Notes under the pieces: generated by a model
What the model was told of the DNA's origin: nothing
Databases searched by the model: none
The model's input: the letters and a program-made list of their open reading frames with translations, nothing else
Source: Ereboglobus sp.
GTDB taxonomy: Bacteria > Verrucomicrobiota > Verrucomicrobiia > Opitutales > Opitutaceae
Assembly: GCA_029974595.1 (NCBI GenBank)
Contig: JARKRC010000062.1
Span: 1-64,000, forward strand
Direction of reading: 5' to 3'
DNA length: 64,000 nt
Made by a program: the position numbers and the translations under genes
In this document: positions 213 to 56,122 of the stretch, piece after piece
Layout: every line of letters starts with the position of its first letter
Numbering within the stretch: the first letter of the stretch is position 1

Positions 213-3155
213 TCATACTTTTTTTCGCAGGGTGCGCATGGTGAACGGGGCGGCGATCAGGGCGAAGGCGGGCAATGATGTCGCGCCTCCTCCTCCGCTG
301 CCGTTGTTATTGTTGCCGTTTCCGCCGCCGGTGGATTGGTCTTTGTAAGTGGCGGTGACGGTCGTGGCATTCGCCGGCATGGTGAAGGTTGTGGTCGCGG
401 CGTTCGCATTGGCGAACGTGCCGCCTGCGCTGGTCAGCCATTTGTCGAAAACTTTTCCGGTGGGAGCGGTGTTTGCGGTGAGCGTCACCGTCGCGCCCGC
501 GGCGTAGCTGCCTGAGCCGGAGCCGTTGGCGACCGTCAGGAGGTAGGTGGCCGGGGCTGGCGGCGTGTGGGTGAAGGCGCCGTCGGTTTCGTAGGGACCG
601 GCGTCATCGAAGCCGTAGAGGCGGAAGGCGCCGTTTGCGAAGTTGAGCGACCAAACGCTGTCGAGGAAAATGAGCGTGCCGGTGTTTCCCGTGGCCTCGT
701 ATTCGTAGGGAATGGAAATCGTGCCGTTTTCGTCGGTGGTGGTAAGCCGTCCGCCTTCGATGACGGTGTAGGCATGGGTTTCGGGCGGAGCGCCGGGCGC
801 GGCGTCGTGATCGGTGAAGGTGAACGCGAGCGTCGCGCCGACGGCGAGAGTCAGGGGCGCGGCTCCGGCGGGGGCGGTGGCGCGCTGGGTGACGATGACG
901 GTGCGCACGAGGCCGCTGCCGCTCACGACGGCGCTGGCGCTGCGCGGGGTTCCGGTGGTGTTCGCGCTGGCGGCGGAGACCGTGACGGTGCCGGTGATGC
1001 TGGCGGCGCCGTTTGAGGGCGAAAGCGCCAGCCATGTGGCGGAAGACGGATTAACTTGGGCCGTCCAAGGCACATTGCCCGAGGCGGTGAACGAGGCGGA
1101 GGCACCGGTGTTTTGCGCGAGGCTGAGGATGATCTTGCTGACGGACAACTCCGGCGGGGCGGGCTGAACGAGCAGCATCGTGGCATTGCTGTAGATCGTG
1201 CCCGTGCTGTTGGTGAGCCGCGCGCGGTATTGGGTGCCATTGCTGGCTTCGGTGAGGCCGGAGAGTGCGAGCGAGGCGGAGGTGGCGTTGGCAACATCAG
1301 ACCATGACGAGCCATTGTTGGTGCTCATTTGCCATTGTATGGCTGGCGCGGGATAGCCCGTAGTGCTGATACTGAGCGTTGTGCTGCTGCCAATAACATT
1401 GGTTGCAGGAGGCAGATTACCGCCGCTGGCAAAGCCCGGCAGGGTGTGCGTTGGGGTCACGGCAAGGGCGGCATCGATAGATGCTGTGCCGTCTGGTCCG
1501 GTGGCCGTTACGGAAAAGATGGAACCATTATCGGCAGTGGCAAGGGCCGGGGTGGTGTAGGTGGCATCAATCGCACCGGAAATGAGATTTCCATTTTTGC
1601 GCCATGTATAGGTGAGCGGAAGGCTGTCAGCCGAAATATTTGCCTTAAATGTTGCGGTTTGGCCTGCTTGCTTGGTTTGCGAACCATAGCCGGATACCCA
1701 GGTGAGAGGGACTCCTGTCAATGTTGTCGGTGTGCTGTAAATGGTTCCAACCTCGTTGCTGGCAATAACCCGATATTGTTTTCCATTATCACTATAGGTT
1801 AGGTTGGTAAAAGACAGCGTGGACGATGTGGCGCTGGCAATATTTATCCATGCCGTTCCCGTGTCGGCGATTGTTTGCCATTGATAGGCTAGCAATGGAC
1901 GGCCTGTGGCACTTACGCTGAGTGTTACACTGCCGCTAGCAGCGGCAGTGTAGGCTTGAAGGTCGCCATTGGGGAGGAAACTTGGTTCAATCGCCATAGT
2001 CACCAATACAGGTGTGTTATGGTTGCTTGTAGTGCCATCGCCCAATTGACCGCGGCTGTTATCGCCCATAGCCCAAAGTTTACCGTCGCTGGTTAGAAAT
2101 AAACTATGGGAATATCCGGCGGCCACCGCAATTACCTGCCCCGCGACTGCTATCTGGACGGGTATCGTGCGACTGCTCGTAGTTGTTCCGTCACCCAACT
2201 GGCCCTTATCGTTGCGCCCAACAGCCCAAAGCTTTCCGTCGCTGGTCACATAGAGGCTGTGCCGCTGTCCTGTGGCTATGGCGACGACATTGATTGAACC
2301 ATGCGCGGTTATTTGAACGGGTGTGTAGCGGTTGTCTGTGGTCCCATCACCCAACTGTCCATAATCATTATAGCCCATTGCCCAAAGTTTACCGTCGTCG
2401 GTTATGCATATGCTATGGTAAAAGTTAGTGGCCACGGCAATGACGGTTCCCGGCACTTGAACCTTCACAGGCCGAGTGCGATTGATTGTAGTGCCGTCTC
2501 CGAACTGACCATAATAGTTATAGCCCATAGCCCAAAGTTTACCGTCGCTGGTTAGAAATAAACTATGGGAAGCCCCGGCGGCCACGGCAATTACATCGCC
2601 CTCGACAGCGATCTGGACGGGGGTCTTGCGATTGGTCGAGCTTCCGTCGCCCAACTGGCCAAGATTATTATAGCCCATTGCCCAGAGCTTTCCGTCGCTG
2701 GTCACGTAGAGACTATGATCATTTCCTGTCGCTATGGCGACAACATTGCTTGAGCCATGCGCCGTTATTTGAACGGGTGTATTGCGGTTGTCTGTGGTCC
2801 CATCACCCAACTGACCATAATTATTAGAGCCCATAGCCCAAAGTTTACCATTGGAATTGAAATACAAGCTGTGGTTGCTACTAGTAGCCACATTAATCGA
2901 GCTTTCCGCATCGAGGGCGGTCACTTGCATAGGTGAGCGATAATTACCCGTGCCACTCATTCCGATTTGGCCATAATTATTACTTCCCATGCTCCAGAGT
3001 TTTCCATCATCCGTTATAAATAGACTATGATATCCTGCGGAGGCCACATGTGTGGCGACGATTGTGGTTTGAGCCTGAGCACAGGCGAGGCAAGTAAAAA
3101 AGGCAATGAGTGATAATGTTCGGATGAGGTGTGTTTTCATGATAAATAATTTCAT
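213..3155 (-). CDS. Secreted RCC1-repeat / Ig-like surface protein with C-terminal sorting-like tail
   Basis: This is a 980-residue exported protein. A signal peptide (basic residues, then LSLIAFFTCLACAQA) is followed by about seven RCC1-type repeats with the recurring core GKLWAMGxNxxGQLGDGT (residues about 40-390). After these come Ig-like modules (about 395-690), a BACON-like module (about 700-785), and a divergent InlB-type repeat (about 890-955). The tail is Gly/Asn-rich, then LPAFALIAAPF, then RTLRKKV, which resembles a membrane-sorting C-terminus. The start at 3155 overlaps the stop of the upstream gene as ATGA, implying translational coupling; ATG at 3140 is an alternative start that gives a more typical signal peptide. 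The RCC1 half is visibly AT-richer than the C-terminal third. RCC1 and Ig modules suggest adhesion or binding at the cell surface; the ligand is unknown. Confidence 0.85.
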   Translation of the reverse strand: MKLFIMKTHLIRTLSLIAFFTCLACAQAQTTIVATHVASAGYHSLFITDDGKLWSMGSNNYGQIGMSGTGNYRSPMQVTALDAESSINVATSSNHSLYFNSNGKLWAMGSNNYGQLGDGTTDNRNTPVQITAHGSSNVVAIATGNDHSLYVTSDGKLWAMGYNNLGQLGDGSSTNRKTPVQIAVEGDVIAVAAGASHSLFLTSDGKLWAMGYNYYGQFGDGTTINRTRPVKVQVPGTVIAVATNFYHSICITDDGKLWAMGYNDYGQLGDGTTDNRYTPVQITAHGSINVVAIATGQRHSLYVTSDGKLWAVGRNDKGQLGDGTTTSSRTIPVQIAVAGQVIAVAAGYSHSLFLTSDGKLWAMGDNSRGQLGDGTTSNHNTPVLVTMAIEPSFLPNGDLQAYTAAASGSVTLSVSATGRPLLAYQWQTIADTGTAWINIASATSSTLSFTNLTYSDNGKQYRVIASNEVGTIYSTPTTLTGVPLTWVSGYGSQTKQAGQTATFKANISADSLPLTYTWRKNGNLISGAIDATYTTPALATADNGSIFSVTATGPDGTASIDAALAVTPTHTLPGFASGGNLPPATNVIGSSTTLSISTTGYPAPAIQWQMSTNNGSSWSDVANATSASLALSGLTEASNGTQYRARLTNSTGTIYSNATMLLVQPAPPELSVSKIILSLAQNTGASASFTASGNVPWTAQVNPSSATWLALSPSNGAASITGTVTVSAASANTTGTPRSASAVVSGSGLVRTVIVTQRATAPAGAAPLTLAVGATLAFTFTDHDAAPGAPPETHAYTVIEGGRLTTTDENGTISIPYEYEATGNTGTLIFLDSVWSLNFANGAFRLYGFDDAGPYETDGAFTHTPPAPATYLLTVANGSGSGSYAAGATVTLTANTAPTGKVFDKWLTSAGGTFANANAATTTFTMPANATTVTATYKDQSTGGGNGNNNNGSGGGGATSLPAFALIAAPFTMRTLRKKV

Positions 3156-3880
3156 TTTTTAATTTTAATGATTAATATTATAATTATTAAAAAAATAGCG
3201 CTTACAATGGCTACCGGTAATGCGCACGGGAAAGGTGTGTCCACCAATGATCCGCATAAGAAAGAAGCGCTGATGGTTATAAGCGCAGCGACAATAGGAC
3301 CGATCAACGTGAACCAGACCAAGCGTTTGGTTGCGACGGCTGTTTCTTTTGTTATAATTGAATCTTCTGATTGAAAGTCATTTCGGACGTAGTCGATTAG
3401 TGACTCAGATATGTAATCTATTGATTGATACAAGATTTCTATGAATTTTTGTTTCATGTCACTTTGAAGATGGTCGAGAATCTCCAAGGGTGGGCATCCT
3501 GTTGGCTTAAAAGAACCGACCCATGGCTCGATGTTTTTTCCAGCGTTGTCGATAGGACTTGAAACAATCAATCCTTCGCCTGTCAGATCCTTGATTAAAT
3601 TCGAAATGGAAATAATTATATAAGTGCTGAAGGACGTTATTGTTTTTATTTCGGAATTATTTTCCTTGGTGCAGCGCTCATTTGGGATGCATACGGCCAG
3701 TTTTTCGCTCAACTCATCCTTGATGACGATGGCCCATTTTCCTGTGTTGTTTAGCGATGGAAATCTGGAGGAAAATTCCATCGGATTAAAAAGGTCTCTT
3801 ATTGAAACCGTTCTCTTTTCATTATAAATGGAAATCAAGCCTCTTATGATTTCCTTCTCGAAGGCGGAGTATTTTCTCAT
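3152..3880 (-). CDS. Hypothetical protein with two C-terminal membrane helices
   Basis: The product has 242 residues and I do not recognise a family. The first 180 residues look soluble and contain three Cys. Two hydrophobic segments follow: WFTLIGPIVAALITISASFL (about 189-208) and ALPVAIVSAIFLIIIILII (about 220-238), then a short Lys-rich tail. The stop codon overlaps the start of the RCC1-repeat gene (ATGA), so the two are very likely one transcription and translation unit. A structured leader lies about 150 bases upstream, with a short reading frame between. The gene is AT-rich compared with the chromosome around it, which suggests acquisition by transfer. A role in handling or anchoring the RCC1 protein is only a guess from coupling. 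Confidence 0.7.
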   Translation of the reverse strand: MRKYSAFEKEIIRGLISIYNEKRTVSIRDLFNPMEFSSRFPSLNNTGKWAIVIKDELSEKLAVCIPNERCTKENNSEIKTITSFSTYIIISISNLIKDLTGEGLIVSSPIDNAGKNIEPWVGSFKPTGCPPLEILDHLQSDMKQKFIEILYQSIDYISESLIDYVRNDFQSEDSIITKETAVATKRLVWFTLIGPIVAALITISASFLCGSLVDTPFPCALPVAIVSAIFLIIIILIIKIKK

Positions 3881-3890
3881 AAGTGAAATC

Positions 3891-4028
3891 CTATTTCCAA
3901 GTTTTCATGTTGCTGGAAACGGAACGCTCACGCTTAGAGAAACGTCCGGCTATTTGTGGGGTTTTAGGGACGTCCAGAAAGACGCTCCCGGCGCAGCTTA
4001 CGCTGGCGCATGTTGCGATGATTTTCAT
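3891..4028 (-). CDS. Short 45-residue ORF directly after leader copy A
   Basis: The ATG at 4028 immediately follows the last stem of leader copy A, exactly where copy B has the start of a surface-protein gene. The frame encodes 45 residues beginning MKIIATCASVSCAGSVFLD and ends 10 bases before the next gene at 3880. It has no convincing signal peptide and no Shine-Dalgarno sequence. It may be a leader peptide or the remnant of a lost surface-protein gene. Its existence as a protein is uncertain. Confidence 0.3.
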   Translation of the reverse strand: MKIIATCASVSCAGSVFLDVPKTPQIAGRFSKRERSVSSNMKTWK

Positions 4029-4279
4029 AACGGCAAAGGTTATTGTAGGTTGGCTCGCATGTGCCTTTGCCGTTGTCAGCGGAAGTCCTTTGAAGACTCT
4101 TGATGCCCGAATACAAAAGAGGGACGTATTTACTTGCGTCCACAAACAGGCACCTGGAAGAGCCCTCAAAGAGACACGTTCAATACGCCCCAATCGGGGC
4201 GCACGTCAGCGAAGCTCTTTGAGTCACGAAATTTTCCAGGTTTCGTTTGTGACAGCAGCCGAAGCTATGCGAAATGAGT
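4029..4279 (-). ncRNA. Candidate structured 5' leader RNA, copy A
   Basis: This sequence aligns over its whole length with 48209-48467 on the other strand, with long conserved blocks such as GATTGGGGCGTATTGAA and AGGTGCCTGTTT. On the minus strand it can form these stems: GCGCCCC/GGGGCGT (4185-4202); GGTGCCTG with CGGGCATC (4147-4154 with 4102-4109), enclosing GGACGCA/TACGTCC with an AGTAAA loop (4122-4141); and an 11-bp stem AACGGCAAAGG/CCTTTGCCGTT (4064-4074 with 4029-4039) that ends exactly at the ATG. Several pairs differ from copy B but stay paired. There is no Shine-Dalgarno between the last stem and the ATG. It matches no riboswitch class I recognise. A regulatory role is inferred. Confidence 0.6.
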
Positions 4280-48177: not shown

Positions 48178-48203
48178 TCATCACCAAAAAACACCACTAA
48201 ATC
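48178..48203 (+). promoter_or_regulatory. Putative promoter of leader copy B
   Basis: TCATCACC (48178-48185) and the -10-like TAAATC (48198-48203) are 12 bases apart, as in copy A (there TATAAT). Conservation with copy A begins about six bases downstream, as expected at a transcription start. Confidence 0.4.
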
Positions 48204-48208
48204 CAAAA

Positions 48209-48467
48209 CTAATTTCGCGTAGCTTCGGCTGCTGTCCGCAAAACGAAACCTGAGAAATTTCGAGCAATAGGACGGCACTGAAATGCGCTCCTGATTGGGG
48301 CGTATTGAAAGTGTCTCTATTGTGGGCCATCTCAGGTGCCTGTTTTGCGGGGCGCAAGTAAATGCGCCCCTCTTTTGTCTTCAGGCACCAACGGGAAACC
48401 CCACAAGGGAACCTCCTGCAGGCAATGGCAAAGGCAAACGCGAGCCAAACCAACAACCATTGCCACC
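48209..48467 (+). ncRNA. Candidate structured 5' leader RNA, copy B
   Basis: The segment aligns along its whole length with 4029-4279 on the minus strand. It can fold into these helices: a UUCG hairpin (GTAGC/GCTGC, 48219-48232), a CGAAA/TTTCG hairpin (48244-48262), GCGCTCC/GGGGCGT (48285-48303), GGTGCCTG/CAGGCACC (48335-48342 with 48382-48389) around the 8-bp GGGGCGCA/TGCGCCCC hairpin (48349-48370, loop AGTAAA), and GGCAATGG/CCATTGCC (48421-48428 with 48457-48464). The last stem ends 3 bases before the ATG. The apical loop GCGAGCCAA of the last stem is conserved in both copies although the stem itself has changed. Regulation of the downstream gene is inferred. Confidence 0.65.
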
Positions 48468-50549
48468 ATGAACCTACATACATCCCTCCGTGCGGTCTTC
48501 CGCGCGATACGTCATCCCAACTGCGCGGCGTTCCTGACGACTGCTTTCCTTTTTATCGCATCGTTTTTCGCATTGCCGGCGCACGCCGCCGTCACCCAGT
48601 TGAAAATCGGCGGAGCCACCATCAGCGGCACGGCCGACACAAACGGCTCCGGCTGGACATGGACTGCGGCGAACGAAACCCTCGTCATCTCGAATAGCAC
48701 CAGCATCACCGGCGGTGTGAATTTTGTCACAGACGGAACCGAGACGCTGGTCACGATCATTTCCAACGGCACGGTCAGCATTGGCGGAGGCATCGGCACT
48801 GCCAGCGGCACGAACATCGCCATTGATGTCAACAGCAACGGCCCGCTCACGCTCACGGGCACTCTCAACGGCATGTTGACAGCCGTCTCTGGCTCAACCC
48901 GCGTCACTGGCGACGTCAGCCTCGGACTTAGTGCTGCGGACGGCGCAACCGCCACTGTCACCGGCAGTGTTGCAAACGCTGTCGCCGTGGCCGGCGGCAA
49001 CGTCTCTATCGAGGGCGGTGTTGCGGGTGACATTGCAATGCTCGCAGGCAGCGCCACGATTAAAGGCGGTGTTGTGGGCTCCGCCGAGATCACCAGCGGG
49101 ACCATCAATATTATCGATGGCCTGAGCGATACCGCCATTGTCATTGGTGGCAATGTCACCATTGATGGCGGCATCGGCTATGTTTTGGGCGTGCTTGCCG
49201 GAACGGTGAAGGTGACCGGCGATGTCGATCAGGGCTTGGTTGTCCTTTCCGGTTCCGTCACCGTCAGCGGCACGGTTGGTGGATCGACTCACGTCAGCAG
49301 CGGTGTGGTGAAGGTCAACGGTGCCACCGTCACTCCGGCGACATTCAGCGACGCCAGCATCGCGCTCAACACGCTCAGCCTCGGAACGTCCGGCTCGGGC
49401 GGCGGCTGGGAGTTCGACGGCGAGACGCTCCTTCTTGATACTCCGGGCTACAACTACACACTCACAGGCACTGCTGCCGCAGGTATCAATGTTTACGTCG
49501 GCGAGGAGGTCACTGGCACGCTCACGCTTCAAAATACCGCGATCAATACCAGCGCCACTGCTGGAAGCGCCATCCGCATCGACACCGGCGGACTCGTTGT
49601 TTCCGTCAAGGGCAATGTCACGCTTGCCGGCAGTGCCGAGGGCATCCGTTATGCTGGCGAGGTCGCTCCGCTCATTCTCGATACCGCTTCCGGCTCCAAG
49701 CTCACAGCCACCGGCGGCCCGGAGCACGACGGTATTTATTGCTCGGATGCGGGTCTCGTCATCAAGGGTTCCGGCACGCTTAACTTCCGTGGTGGCGATA
49801 CCGCCGATGCGACAGCATGGACCGGTATTTATACTGGATACGGCGTCATCATCCAAGGCTCGGTCCAAGTTACCGCCACCGGCGGCAACTATACCGGCGC
49901 TGATTCCGACGATAGCGGCGAAAACGATGGCATCTACTGCTTCGCTCTCTCGATCACAGGCTCCGCGAAAGTCACGGCCATCGGCGGCAATTCTCCGGGG
50001 GCAAACTGCTTCGCGGGTTCCGGCGTGATCGCACAAAGCGGCGTCTTTCACGTCACGTCCTCCGCCTCGCTCACGGCTACCGCAGGGAGCAGCGGCAAAC
50101 AGCAGTTTGGTTATGGGACCGGCATTGGCGCCCCATATTTTGACTGCGCCATCACCGGCTCCGGTCAGGTCAAGGCGACGGGCGACTATGGCATCGCCAC
50201 GCTTGGCAACATCTGGATTACCGGCGGAAATGTCACTGCCCAAGGCAAAGGCGCGGGCTATGCGCTTTACGCCGCGCGCATCCTCTACGATGCAACGCCA
50301 CGAGGCGGCTACGTCACCATCTCCGGCGGCACTGTGACCGCCAAAAATAACGACACCGCAGGTCACGAACACTGGAAGCACCTCAACCACACCGGCGGCA
50401 CCTATAACGGCGCGACCATCGGCGGAGGCGGTGGCGGCGGCAACAACAACAACAACAGCAACAGTGGCGGTGGTGGTGGTGGCGCTCCCATGCCCGCCGT
50501 GCTCGTGCTGCTCGCGGCGATGATCGCCCTCCGCGCGCGCAGAAAGTGA
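48468..50549 (+). CDS. Secreted repetitive surface protein with C-terminal sorting-like tail
   Basis: The 693-residue protein has an N-terminal extension and signal (FLTTAFLFIASFFALPAHA), then a long series of short beta repeats rich in Gly, Thr, Val and Asn, with VTGDV, TISGGTV and SGSVTVSGTVGG motifs (about 45-640), of the kind forming beta helices or solenoids. The tail is Gly/Asn-rich, then APMPAVLVLLAAMIALRARRK. ATG 48468 was chosen: it follows the structured leader directly, and the longer frame to 48336 overlaps the leader. The gene sits between two ABC-2 permeases. Adhesion or surface coating is a guess. Confidence 0.82.
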   Translation: MNLHTSLRAVFRAIRHPNCAAFLTTAFLFIASFFALPAHAAVTQLKIGGATISGTADTNGSGWTWTAANETLVISNSTSITGGVNFVTDGTETLVTIISNGTVSIGGGIGTASGTNIAIDVNSNGPLTLTGTLNGMLTAVSGSTRVTGDVSLGLSAADGATATVTGSVANAVAVAGGNVSIEGGVAGDIAMLAGSATIKGGVVGSAEITSGTINIIDGLSDTAIVIGGNVTIDGGIGYVLGVLAGTVKVTGDVDQGLVVLSGSVTVSGTVGGSTHVSSGVVKVNGATVTPATFSDASIALNTLSLGTSGSGGGWEFDGETLLLDTPGYNYTLTGTAAAGINVYVGEEVTGTLTLQNTAINTSATAGSAIRIDTGGLVVSVKGNVTLAGSAEGIRYAGEVAPLILDTASGSKLTATGGPEHDGIYCSDAGLVIKGSGTLNFRGGDTADATAWTGIYTGYGVIIQGSVQVTATGGNYTGADSDDSGENDGIYCFALSITGSAKVTAIGGNSPGANCFAGSGVIAQSGVFHVTSSASLTATAGSSGKQQFGYGTGIGAPYFDCAITGSGQVKATGDYGIATLGNIWITGGNVTAQGKGAGYALYAARILYDATPRGGYVTISGGTVTAKNNDTAGHEHWKHLNHTGGTYNGATIGGGGGGGNNNNNSNSGGGGGGAPMPAVLVLLAAMIALRARRK

Positions 50550-55941: not shown

Positions 55942-56033
55942 TTTCTAGTGGAGGGCGTGGTTGATCGGCCCGGCAAATGCGCGGCGCGTGAATCCTCCCC
56001 GACCGCCTGTCGCGCCCGGCGCGCGTGCGGTTG

Positions 56034-56122
56034 TGACGATTCCTTCGCCGGTATTAGCCGGATCAGGTTCGACGGGTTTGTTCTCAGCTTCCCGCGGGCG
56101 GAAGCACCCCGTGTCACGAGAC
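56034..56122 (-). promoter_or_regulatory. TPP riboswitch (THI box) of the thiM operon
   Basis: On the minus strand the segment contains the diagnostic blocks GGGGTGC, GCTGAGAACAAACCC, GAACCTGATCCGGCTAATAC and CGGCGAAGGAA in the canonical order, with stems pairing ACACGGGGTGC and flanking arms. It lies about 95 bases upstream of thiM. By family knowledge it binds thiamine pyrophosphate and turns the operon down. Confidence 0.93.

Follow-up and report, generated by a model that had tools for sequence, protein, structure and literature searches.

The window analysed here, the whole 64,000-nucleotide stretch of contig JARKRC010000062.1 from Ereboglobus sp. (Opitutaceae, Verrucomicrobiota), carries two related leader sequences that each run up to an AUG: copy B on the forward strand, before a gene for an exported-like protein, and copy A on the reverse strand, before a short open frame and two longer genes. 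Their parts are as follows.

48213-48467, forward strand: copy B leader, aligned with copy A along its length
48213-48389, forward strand: copy B core through the post-terminator strand; covariance model R1 match, 145.1 bits
48213-48220, forward strand: copy B 5' end, UUUCGCGU, pairable with ACGCGA in the AUG-hairpin loop (within 48437-48444)
48219-48232, forward strand: copy B hairpin H1, GUAGC UUCG GCUGC
48238-48348, forward strand: copy B closed core of P1, P2 and P3, with AAA and UGCC conserved between P1 and P2
48238-48245 with 48341-48348, forward strand: copy B P1
48249-48255 with 48330-48336, forward strand: copy B P2
48265-48273 with 48313-48322, forward strand: copy B P3
48283-48305, forward strand: copy B apical arm P4
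48349-48370, forward strand: copy B terminator-like hairpin, with GGGGCGCA/TGCGCCCC inside
48371-48381, forward strand: copy B T-run, directly after the terminator-like hairpin
48382-48410, forward strand: copy B strand c, with CAGGCACC at 48382-48389 and CCCCACAAGGGA at 48399-48410; alternative partner of the core 3' strand
48335-48342 with 48382-48389, forward strand: copy B stem described in a first-pass annotation, GGTGCCTG with CAGGCACC
48421-48464, forward strand: copy B AUG-abutting hairpin, GGCAATGG/CCATTGCC; AUG at 48468
48468-50549, forward strand: gene behind copy B, 693-aa exported-like protein
4029-4274, reverse strand: copy A leader, aligned with copy B along its length
4102-4274, reverse strand: copy A core through the post-terminator strand; R1 match, 150.8 bits, and blastn match to copy B
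4029-4074, reverse strand: copy A AUG-abutting hairpin, loop AUGCGAG; AUG at 4028
3894-4028, reverse strand: 45-aa open frame starting at the AUG that abuts copy A
213-3880, reverse strand: genes after copy A, for a 242-aa protein and then a 980-aa RCC1/Ig/InlB-repeat protein

The first-pass annotation had proposed that copy B matches the reverse complement of copy A along its length, which is borne out by blastn (77% identity, query 30-287, E 3.2e-42) and by a MAFFT alignment. The stems that it named are present at their places in copy B, the fold of which (z -5.24) beats 200 of 200 dinucleotide shuffles; for copy A (z -3.30), 1 of 200 shuffles is equally good. However, these stems form the outer part of the element, and the main helices P1-P4, which make up the ~160-nt core at its heart, had been missed. 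The model scores listed above (and the 144.6 bits that a second model, R2, gives copy B at 48213-48370) follow by construction, because both copies are in the training sets of both models; model-independent support for copy B comes from its blastn matches to copy A and to other genomes. The abutting AUG, which had been assigned to a surface protein, does start one behind copy B, a 693-aa protein that has no Pfam match and a C-terminus that we take to resemble PEP-CTERM anchors. In copy A, however, the 45-codon frame comes first, and the 242-aa protein that follows has neither a Pfam nor a PADLOC match.

Rfam 15 (4227 families), run on the window at gathering thresholds, returned only a TPP riboswitch aptamer that lies off the element (56022-56121, reverse strand; 68.4 bits, gathering score 54.3). 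Rfam searches of 8 loci at E ≤ 1 and of 20 loci at E ≤ 0.1 gave no hit on the element above gathering score (a miRNA model reached 24.4 bits at L010, its cut-off being 100), and in these searches none of the 4227 models matches the element. The abiF RNA motif (RF03085) was rejected for its lack of an Rfam match here and because the commonest downstream families are others (among the best 25 of 303 PADLOC and 25 of 52 Pfam families). The octamer TCATCACC, read in the first pass as a shared promoter box, had to be dropped, being present exactly upstream of only 4 of 128 copies. Nor did the -10 that was thought to be placed alike hold up: TATAAT occurs exactly upstream of 6 of 127 copies (1.7 in shuffles), and with up to one mismatch in 25 (25.5 in shuffles), and a -10 hexamer is not established. 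Among the papers listed by searches of open full text, none looks, from its title and abstract opening, to concern the element; bioRxiv and most subscription journals lie outside that scope.

A DNA search of the Ereboglobus genome revealed copies beyond A and B. Model R1 was built from 29 copies, including three further copies from this genome, and R2 with hand-set helices. R1 gives nine matches in the genome at E ≤ 0.01, and R2 finds the same nine places; because contigs C57 and C19 end in identical element sequence, these probably represent eight copies, one of them split by the assembly. Three (C26, C4:361979 and C57/C19) lie outside the training sets. Beyond this genome, a 23-base 5' motif was found in 89 stretches of named genome contigs, all titled Verrucomicrobia or its subgroups, or Lentisphaerae/Victivallales, bar four (three titled 'bacterium', L059, L060 and L084, and one Actinomycetota MAG, L068). 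Viral contigs contain no exact copy of the 23-mer, and copy B gave no blastn match in plasmid and phage records. The model searches of genomes covered the Verrucomicrobiota only; within them, R1 matched 26 of 120 Opitutaceae genomes at E ≤ 1e-3 and, at E ≤ 1e-4, 9 of 273 genomes in the order, 39 of 387 across the phylum and, in another class, 64 of 345 as well as 34 in a 193-genome sample; these samples overlap. Weak model matches mostly look real, as 24 of 31 in one set of matches have all 14 P1/P2 pairs in differing sequences; a few are unparsable (for example L165, L199 and L203) and may be false. These searches confirm copies A and B as members of a predicted RNA family that spans the Verrucomicrobiota.

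Several copies are incomplete. At L110 (~3850-4000, reverse strand), which sits before a ResIII/SWI2-SNF2-type gene at 1369-3678, most of the core is absent and the 5' end and AUG-proximal hairpin are kept, which could be either an artefact of the MAG or a deletion of the core that arose naturally. At L019/L082, L097 and L086, 5' parts of the element (24 to ~120 nt) are joined directly to other sequence that by eye is coding; these are either deletion variants or assembly artefacts.

Read 5' to 3', the element consists of H1, P1, AAA opposite UGCC, P2, UUU opposite GGGC, P3 and P4, with the terminator-like hairpin (GGGACGCAAGUAAAUGCGUCCC in many Opitutaceae) and the T-run directly 3' of the core. 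The MAFFT alignment A2 mis-set P2, so that R1 lacks this helix, and pair counts were taken from the homogeneous A8 and R2. Ahead of alignment, loci present twice had been removed, along with five copies that were truncated or chimeric. Alignment A8 comprises 39 copies with a hand-set structure. In A8, 98.1% of the cells are paired, compared with 33-48% when the 3' partners are slid by 1-3 columns and 87.5% after shuffling; 161 cells are changed on both sides (44.9 ± 5.6 shuffled) and the covariation score is 0.352 (0.140 shuffled), and a less marked excess is seen in the number of further pair types (46 versus 41.9, matched in 16 of 500 shuffles). A larger set of 128 copies was obtained from 132 model matches by dropping those shorter than 150 nt. 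Across this set, P1 is paired at 0.991 and P2 at 0.989, versus 0.522 and 0.624 when strands are swapped between copies. Requiring 7/7 pairs in both helices kept 119 copies, all with the full 14 P1/P2 pairs; the parser maximises pairing, and its controls are the A8 tests and shuffled sequences, which reach a maximum of 12/14 with the same parser. The compensatory changes first noted between the two window copies thus hold across the family, and the element has a conserved secondary structure with covariation, as in a cis-regulatory leader RNA. The first-pass reading was to fall if there were no homologues, no covariation or an Rfam identity; homologues and covariation were found, and an Rfam identity was not.

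Hairpin H1 is paired in 97.9% of A8 cells without covariation, and is near-invariant here, in part through the choice of most rows by a search pattern that fixes it; the diverged copies L153 and L154 differ in its loop or stem. Its conserved CGGCUGCUG (within 48213-48240) is the complement of CAGCAGCCG from the 530 loop of 16S rRNA, a likeness that is possibly due to chance.

The next gene lies on the same strand in 100 of 114 evaluable copies, 14 of the 128 having been left out as less than 700 nt from a contig end; an opposite-strand ORF follows in 13 cases, several of which are recognisable as ORF-calling artefacts, and none in 1. The gene upstream of the element is on the same strand in 58 copies and on the opposite strand in 61, with 9 copies at contig ends. 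The element is thus located upstream of, and co-directional with, a gene, as is a cis-regulatory leader RNA.

The identity of these genes was assessed from the protein that comes first downstream in 80 copies and from the nearest upstream protein of 94. The 80 leave out truncated loci and those represented before, but include two broken copies, L019 and L110. At least 47 of the 80 downstream genes are defence genes, encoding DNA methyltransferases, restriction enzymes or defence helicases, 25 by a methyltransferase/helicase motif and 22 by a restriction or defence match in Pfam or PADLOC; this is a lower bound, since the strict motif pattern undercounts such genes and part of the downstream proteins were scanned singly. 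The motif test alone detected 25 of 80 proteins downstream versus 2 of 94 upstream. PADLOC (E ≤ 1e-5) matched 303 families downstream; among the best 25 of these, models of type III methyltransferases match as many as 21 of the 80 proteins. Upstream it matched 16 families, each in 1 of 94 proteins and including AbiEi, DrmA and ThsA, so that at most 16 upstream proteins have a match. Among the Pfam matches listed downstream are N6_N4_Mtase (20), ResIII (12), C5 methylase (5), SNF2 (5), N6_Mtase (4), MmeI_Mtase (3), Mrr_cat_2 (3), Eco57I (3) and others; these families are absent upstream among the best 25 of 56 families, and no upstream family has more than 2 members.

Of the other 33 downstream genes, 17 either score as exported-like in a crude test or match a glycosyl- or acyl-transferase, and the family appears also to precede genes for exported and glycan-modifying proteins. 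The numbers do not, however, demonstrate that surface proteins are preferred, because the same crude test finds exported-like proteins downstream in 15 of 80 cases and upstream in 12 of 94. The first-pass annotation had inferred a cis-acting RNA controlling translation of exported proteins and had expected a covariance model to find many hits before their genes; the conserved, covarying leader and the many hits were found, whereas control of exported proteins as its general role is not supported.

Within the Ereboglobus genome, the genes that follow copies are an Hma operon (HmaB, HmaC, HmaA), a type III system comprising MTase and REase, another type III pair (mod/res), a LuxR-type (GerE) regulator, by similarity a second such regulator, and a protein with what we take to be Sel1-like repeats, and the remaining copies lead the two surface-protein loci of the window. 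The copy at G000:C28:151478-151644 and the contig-end copy G000:C19/C57 lead similar proteins, one of which is LuxR-type (GerE), so that the leader may sit atop a small regulatory cascade. Further targets across the family are glycosyltransferases, MBOAT, acyltransferase-3, PMT-like, AraC/PocR and RadC proteins, and those of diverged copies are, by eye, lipoprotein-like and other exported proteins and acyltransferases. The L071/L181 copy, in a MAG titled Lentisphaerae, leads a RadC-like JAB-domain gene.

A terminator-like hairpin (a stem of at least 5 bp, then at least 4 T in 7) is present in 110 of 119 parsed copies, a count that carries no shuffle control, and its stem is paired at 99.3% on A8; by eye, the T-run is often interrupted outside the Opitutaceae. 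The leader therefore appears, like an attenuator, to contain an intrinsic terminator. Beyond it, strand c matches the P3 3' strand within the same copy, with a summed stability of 1653 compared with 1328 ± 29 for swapped partners (maximum 1403 in 300 swaps). This comparison covers 88 of the 128 copies, being limited to those in which a GGC[AG]-like strand follows the terminator. The P3 3' strand thus has two conserved partners, since it pairs with the P3 5' strand and with strand c. Computed folding of 117 full leaders (those under 240 nt were dropped) gave at least 6 expected pairs between the core 3' strand, b, and strand c in 68 leaders, and a P2 probability above 0.5 in 50. The same folding gives a mixed picture for copy A, and in copy B the core persists: there the strand c match is shorter than 8 in a row, b:c pairing is not favoured and P2 has a probability of 0.99. 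Its core and terminator hairpin fold together, so that this copy gives no sign of the two excluding each other.

Two other contacts between core and terminator were scored in the same way. In 112 copies with a recognisable T-run, the P4 3' strand is more complementary to the terminator 3' arm with which it occurs than to swapped ones, most clearly in 20 diverged copies (24.95 versus 18.06 ± 0.85 swapped; 22.79 versus 20.21 ± 0.29 swapped in the 92 others). Extension of P1 over the terminator 5' arm gave a modest difference (3.44 versus 3.02 ± 0.07 swapped) that was not above swapped controls in a 54-copy subset (2.98 versus 2.84 ± 0.09), and hints only weakly at a P1-extension antiterminator.

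The start codons of 54 of the 80 downstream genes lie 215-275 nt from the element start. A stem ending within 6 nt of the start is found at 40 of the 80 genes, compared with 16 of 84 control genes (those usable of the 94 upstream genes), and at 35 of the 54 with starts in that range. Among 95 copies with the UUUCGCGU 5' end, 54 have [AG]CGCGA near the AUG, compared with 5.3 in mononucleotide shuffles. The loop AUGCGAG of copy A matches its own 5' end, UUUCGCAU (4267-4274), through a paired change (CGCAU at the 5' end, AUGCGA in the loop), and in L154 the changed 5' end UUUGCGUA matches the loop UACGCA. Five copies combine a changed 5' end with an AUG hairpin. Of these, copy A and L154 have matching loops, five pairs remain in L137, and L146 and L153 have no clear loop match. 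The variants that bear on a pairing between the 5' end and the loop of the AUG hairpin are few.

What follows the terminator differs with the gene class, as assigned by hand. The terminator is followed by a GGCA[CT] strand, which as RNA (GGCA[CU]) is pairable with the UGCC side of the core, in 42 of 46 defence, 1 of 25 exported-gene and 7 of 11 surface-glycan copies; an [AG]CGCGA or AUGCGA loop lies near the AUG in 32 of 46, 2 of 25 and 6 of 11, respectively. The AUG-proximal part is mostly absent from exported-gene copies, which together with the terminator-like hairpin makes control of translation alone, as first proposed, too narrow a description. The rule is not strict, because both window copies, which precede surface proteins, carry the full platform.

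A structured leader acting in cis is well supported by these comparisons, which establish the family, its covarying helices, its orientation to genes, the excess of defence genes, two predicted partners for strand b and two platforms. We consider it rather probable that the family consists of cis-acting 5' leader RNAs that operate as two-state switches, combining attenuation with translation control, mainly of defence genes. During transcription, strand a would pair with strand b to give the core P1-P2-P3 and P4, with its AAA/UGCC and UUU/GGGC loops, and the terminator-like hairpin with its T-run would come after the core. In defence-type copies, strand c would be made only on read-through; being complementary to b, it could displace a, and it runs into the AUG-abutting hairpin, whose loop could pair with the 5' end of the RNA. 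The core would thus form first and then either persist or yield to the terminator and, past read-through, to strand c. The scheme supposes that the element is transcribed as a leader and that the hairpin terminates transcription; stabilised a:b pairing would be the ON state and the terminator or b:c pairing the OFF state, and a ligand or protein, possibly linked to infection, would stabilise the core.

A possible, if somewhat unlikely, alternative is a leader controlled by protein alone, with the core bound by a phage protein, a host RNA-binding protein or the product of the gene and with no small ligand involved. The targets are often toxic or costly defence genes, and AbiD1 from Lactococcus could serve as a precedent. 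Its 5'UTR is said to be bound by a conserved phage protein that activates translation (PMC12373285). Control by the gene's own product is unlikely because the products belong to unrelated families, which leaves one shared protein possible. JUMPstart/ops-RfaH and LoaP leaders are 5' elements that control surface or accessory operons. Unlike them, the present element has no associated NusG paralogue: a dedicated RfaH/LoaP-like protein was rejected as a candidate, as it does not track the element across 35 genomes (17 with copies and 18 without are alike), and the Ereboglobus genome has one NusG match.

We regard as unlikely that the leader is a passive damper that senses nothing, its terminator and structure simply keeping down the output of genes that are toxic or newly acquired. 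The terminator-like hairpin in 110 of 119 copies, targets that are harmful if over-expressed and sporadic occurrence among genomes would all suit a damper, which however has no need for conserved AAA/UGCC and UUU/GGGC loops or for a third strand matched to its own copy. The terminated ~160-nt leader could instead itself be the product, a trans-acting small RNA family, as might be suggested by the closed core, the terminator-like end and the several copies in some genomes; this is improbable given the set distance to same-strand genes (54 of 80 at 215-275 nt; 100 of 114 co-directional) and a strand c that falls 3' of the terminator and matches the core of the same copy. Finally, a mobile DNA repeat or recombination cassette (MITE or attC-like) that forms hairpins by chance, to which several copies in some genomes and the four chimeric or truncated copies (L019/L082, L086, L097 and L110) might point, is unlikely from orientation and position and becomes very improbable with the element pointing into genes irrespective of the upstream gene's strand, defence-biased targets, covariation without sequence identity, and the blank results for blastn in plasmid and phage records and for the exact 23-mer in viral contigs.

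The proposed two-state leader resembles several known systems. Riboswitches and attenuators have a closed core, conserved internal loops, an adjacent terminator, alternative pairing of the core 3' strand and modular platforms. The element shares a closed core, conserved loops, a terminator-like hairpin, alternative pairing of that strand and modular platforms with them, but its targets do not form one metabolic pathway, and it has a third strand past the terminator and an AUG-abutting hairpin pairable with the 5' end. The nearest published analogue that we found is the leader of abiF, the abiF RNA (for example RCd22 of Clostridioides difficile; RF03085), described as having a predicted Rho-independent terminator before an anti-phage gene and proposed to be 'riboswitch-like', acting by premature termination (PMC12373285). 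Both are structured RNAs with a terminator-like hairpin ahead of an anti-phage gene; unlike the abiF RNA, which in that account is ~100-130 nt and precedes abiF genes only, the present RNA serves many unrelated gene families. One regulator type common to different restriction-modification systems is also described in RptR, a repressor of restriction-modification islands (PMC12255303), which is however a DNA-binding protein, where the regulator here would be an RNA. What appears unusual is that a single predicted RNA stands, throughout one phylum, ahead of numerous defence families that are unrelated to each other, as well as ahead of some surface genes.

The regulation of defence genes before and during infection is described as poorly known (PMC12255303), and one RNA element before unrelated defence systems offers a direct handle on it. 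The element can also be used to look for defence operons in Verrucomicrobiota with poor annotation. It represents a leader design without an Rfam match, with three competing strands, an AUG hairpin and a 5'-end contact. A rather doubtful but attractive extension is that the family is a phylum-wide RNA switch that senses an infection-related signal and frees the repertoire of restriction-modification and other defence together with surface proteins and glycan modifiers, the products that phages encounter first. If this were true, it would constitute a regulon of phage-facing genes that is united by a cis-acting RNA and not by a transcription factor.
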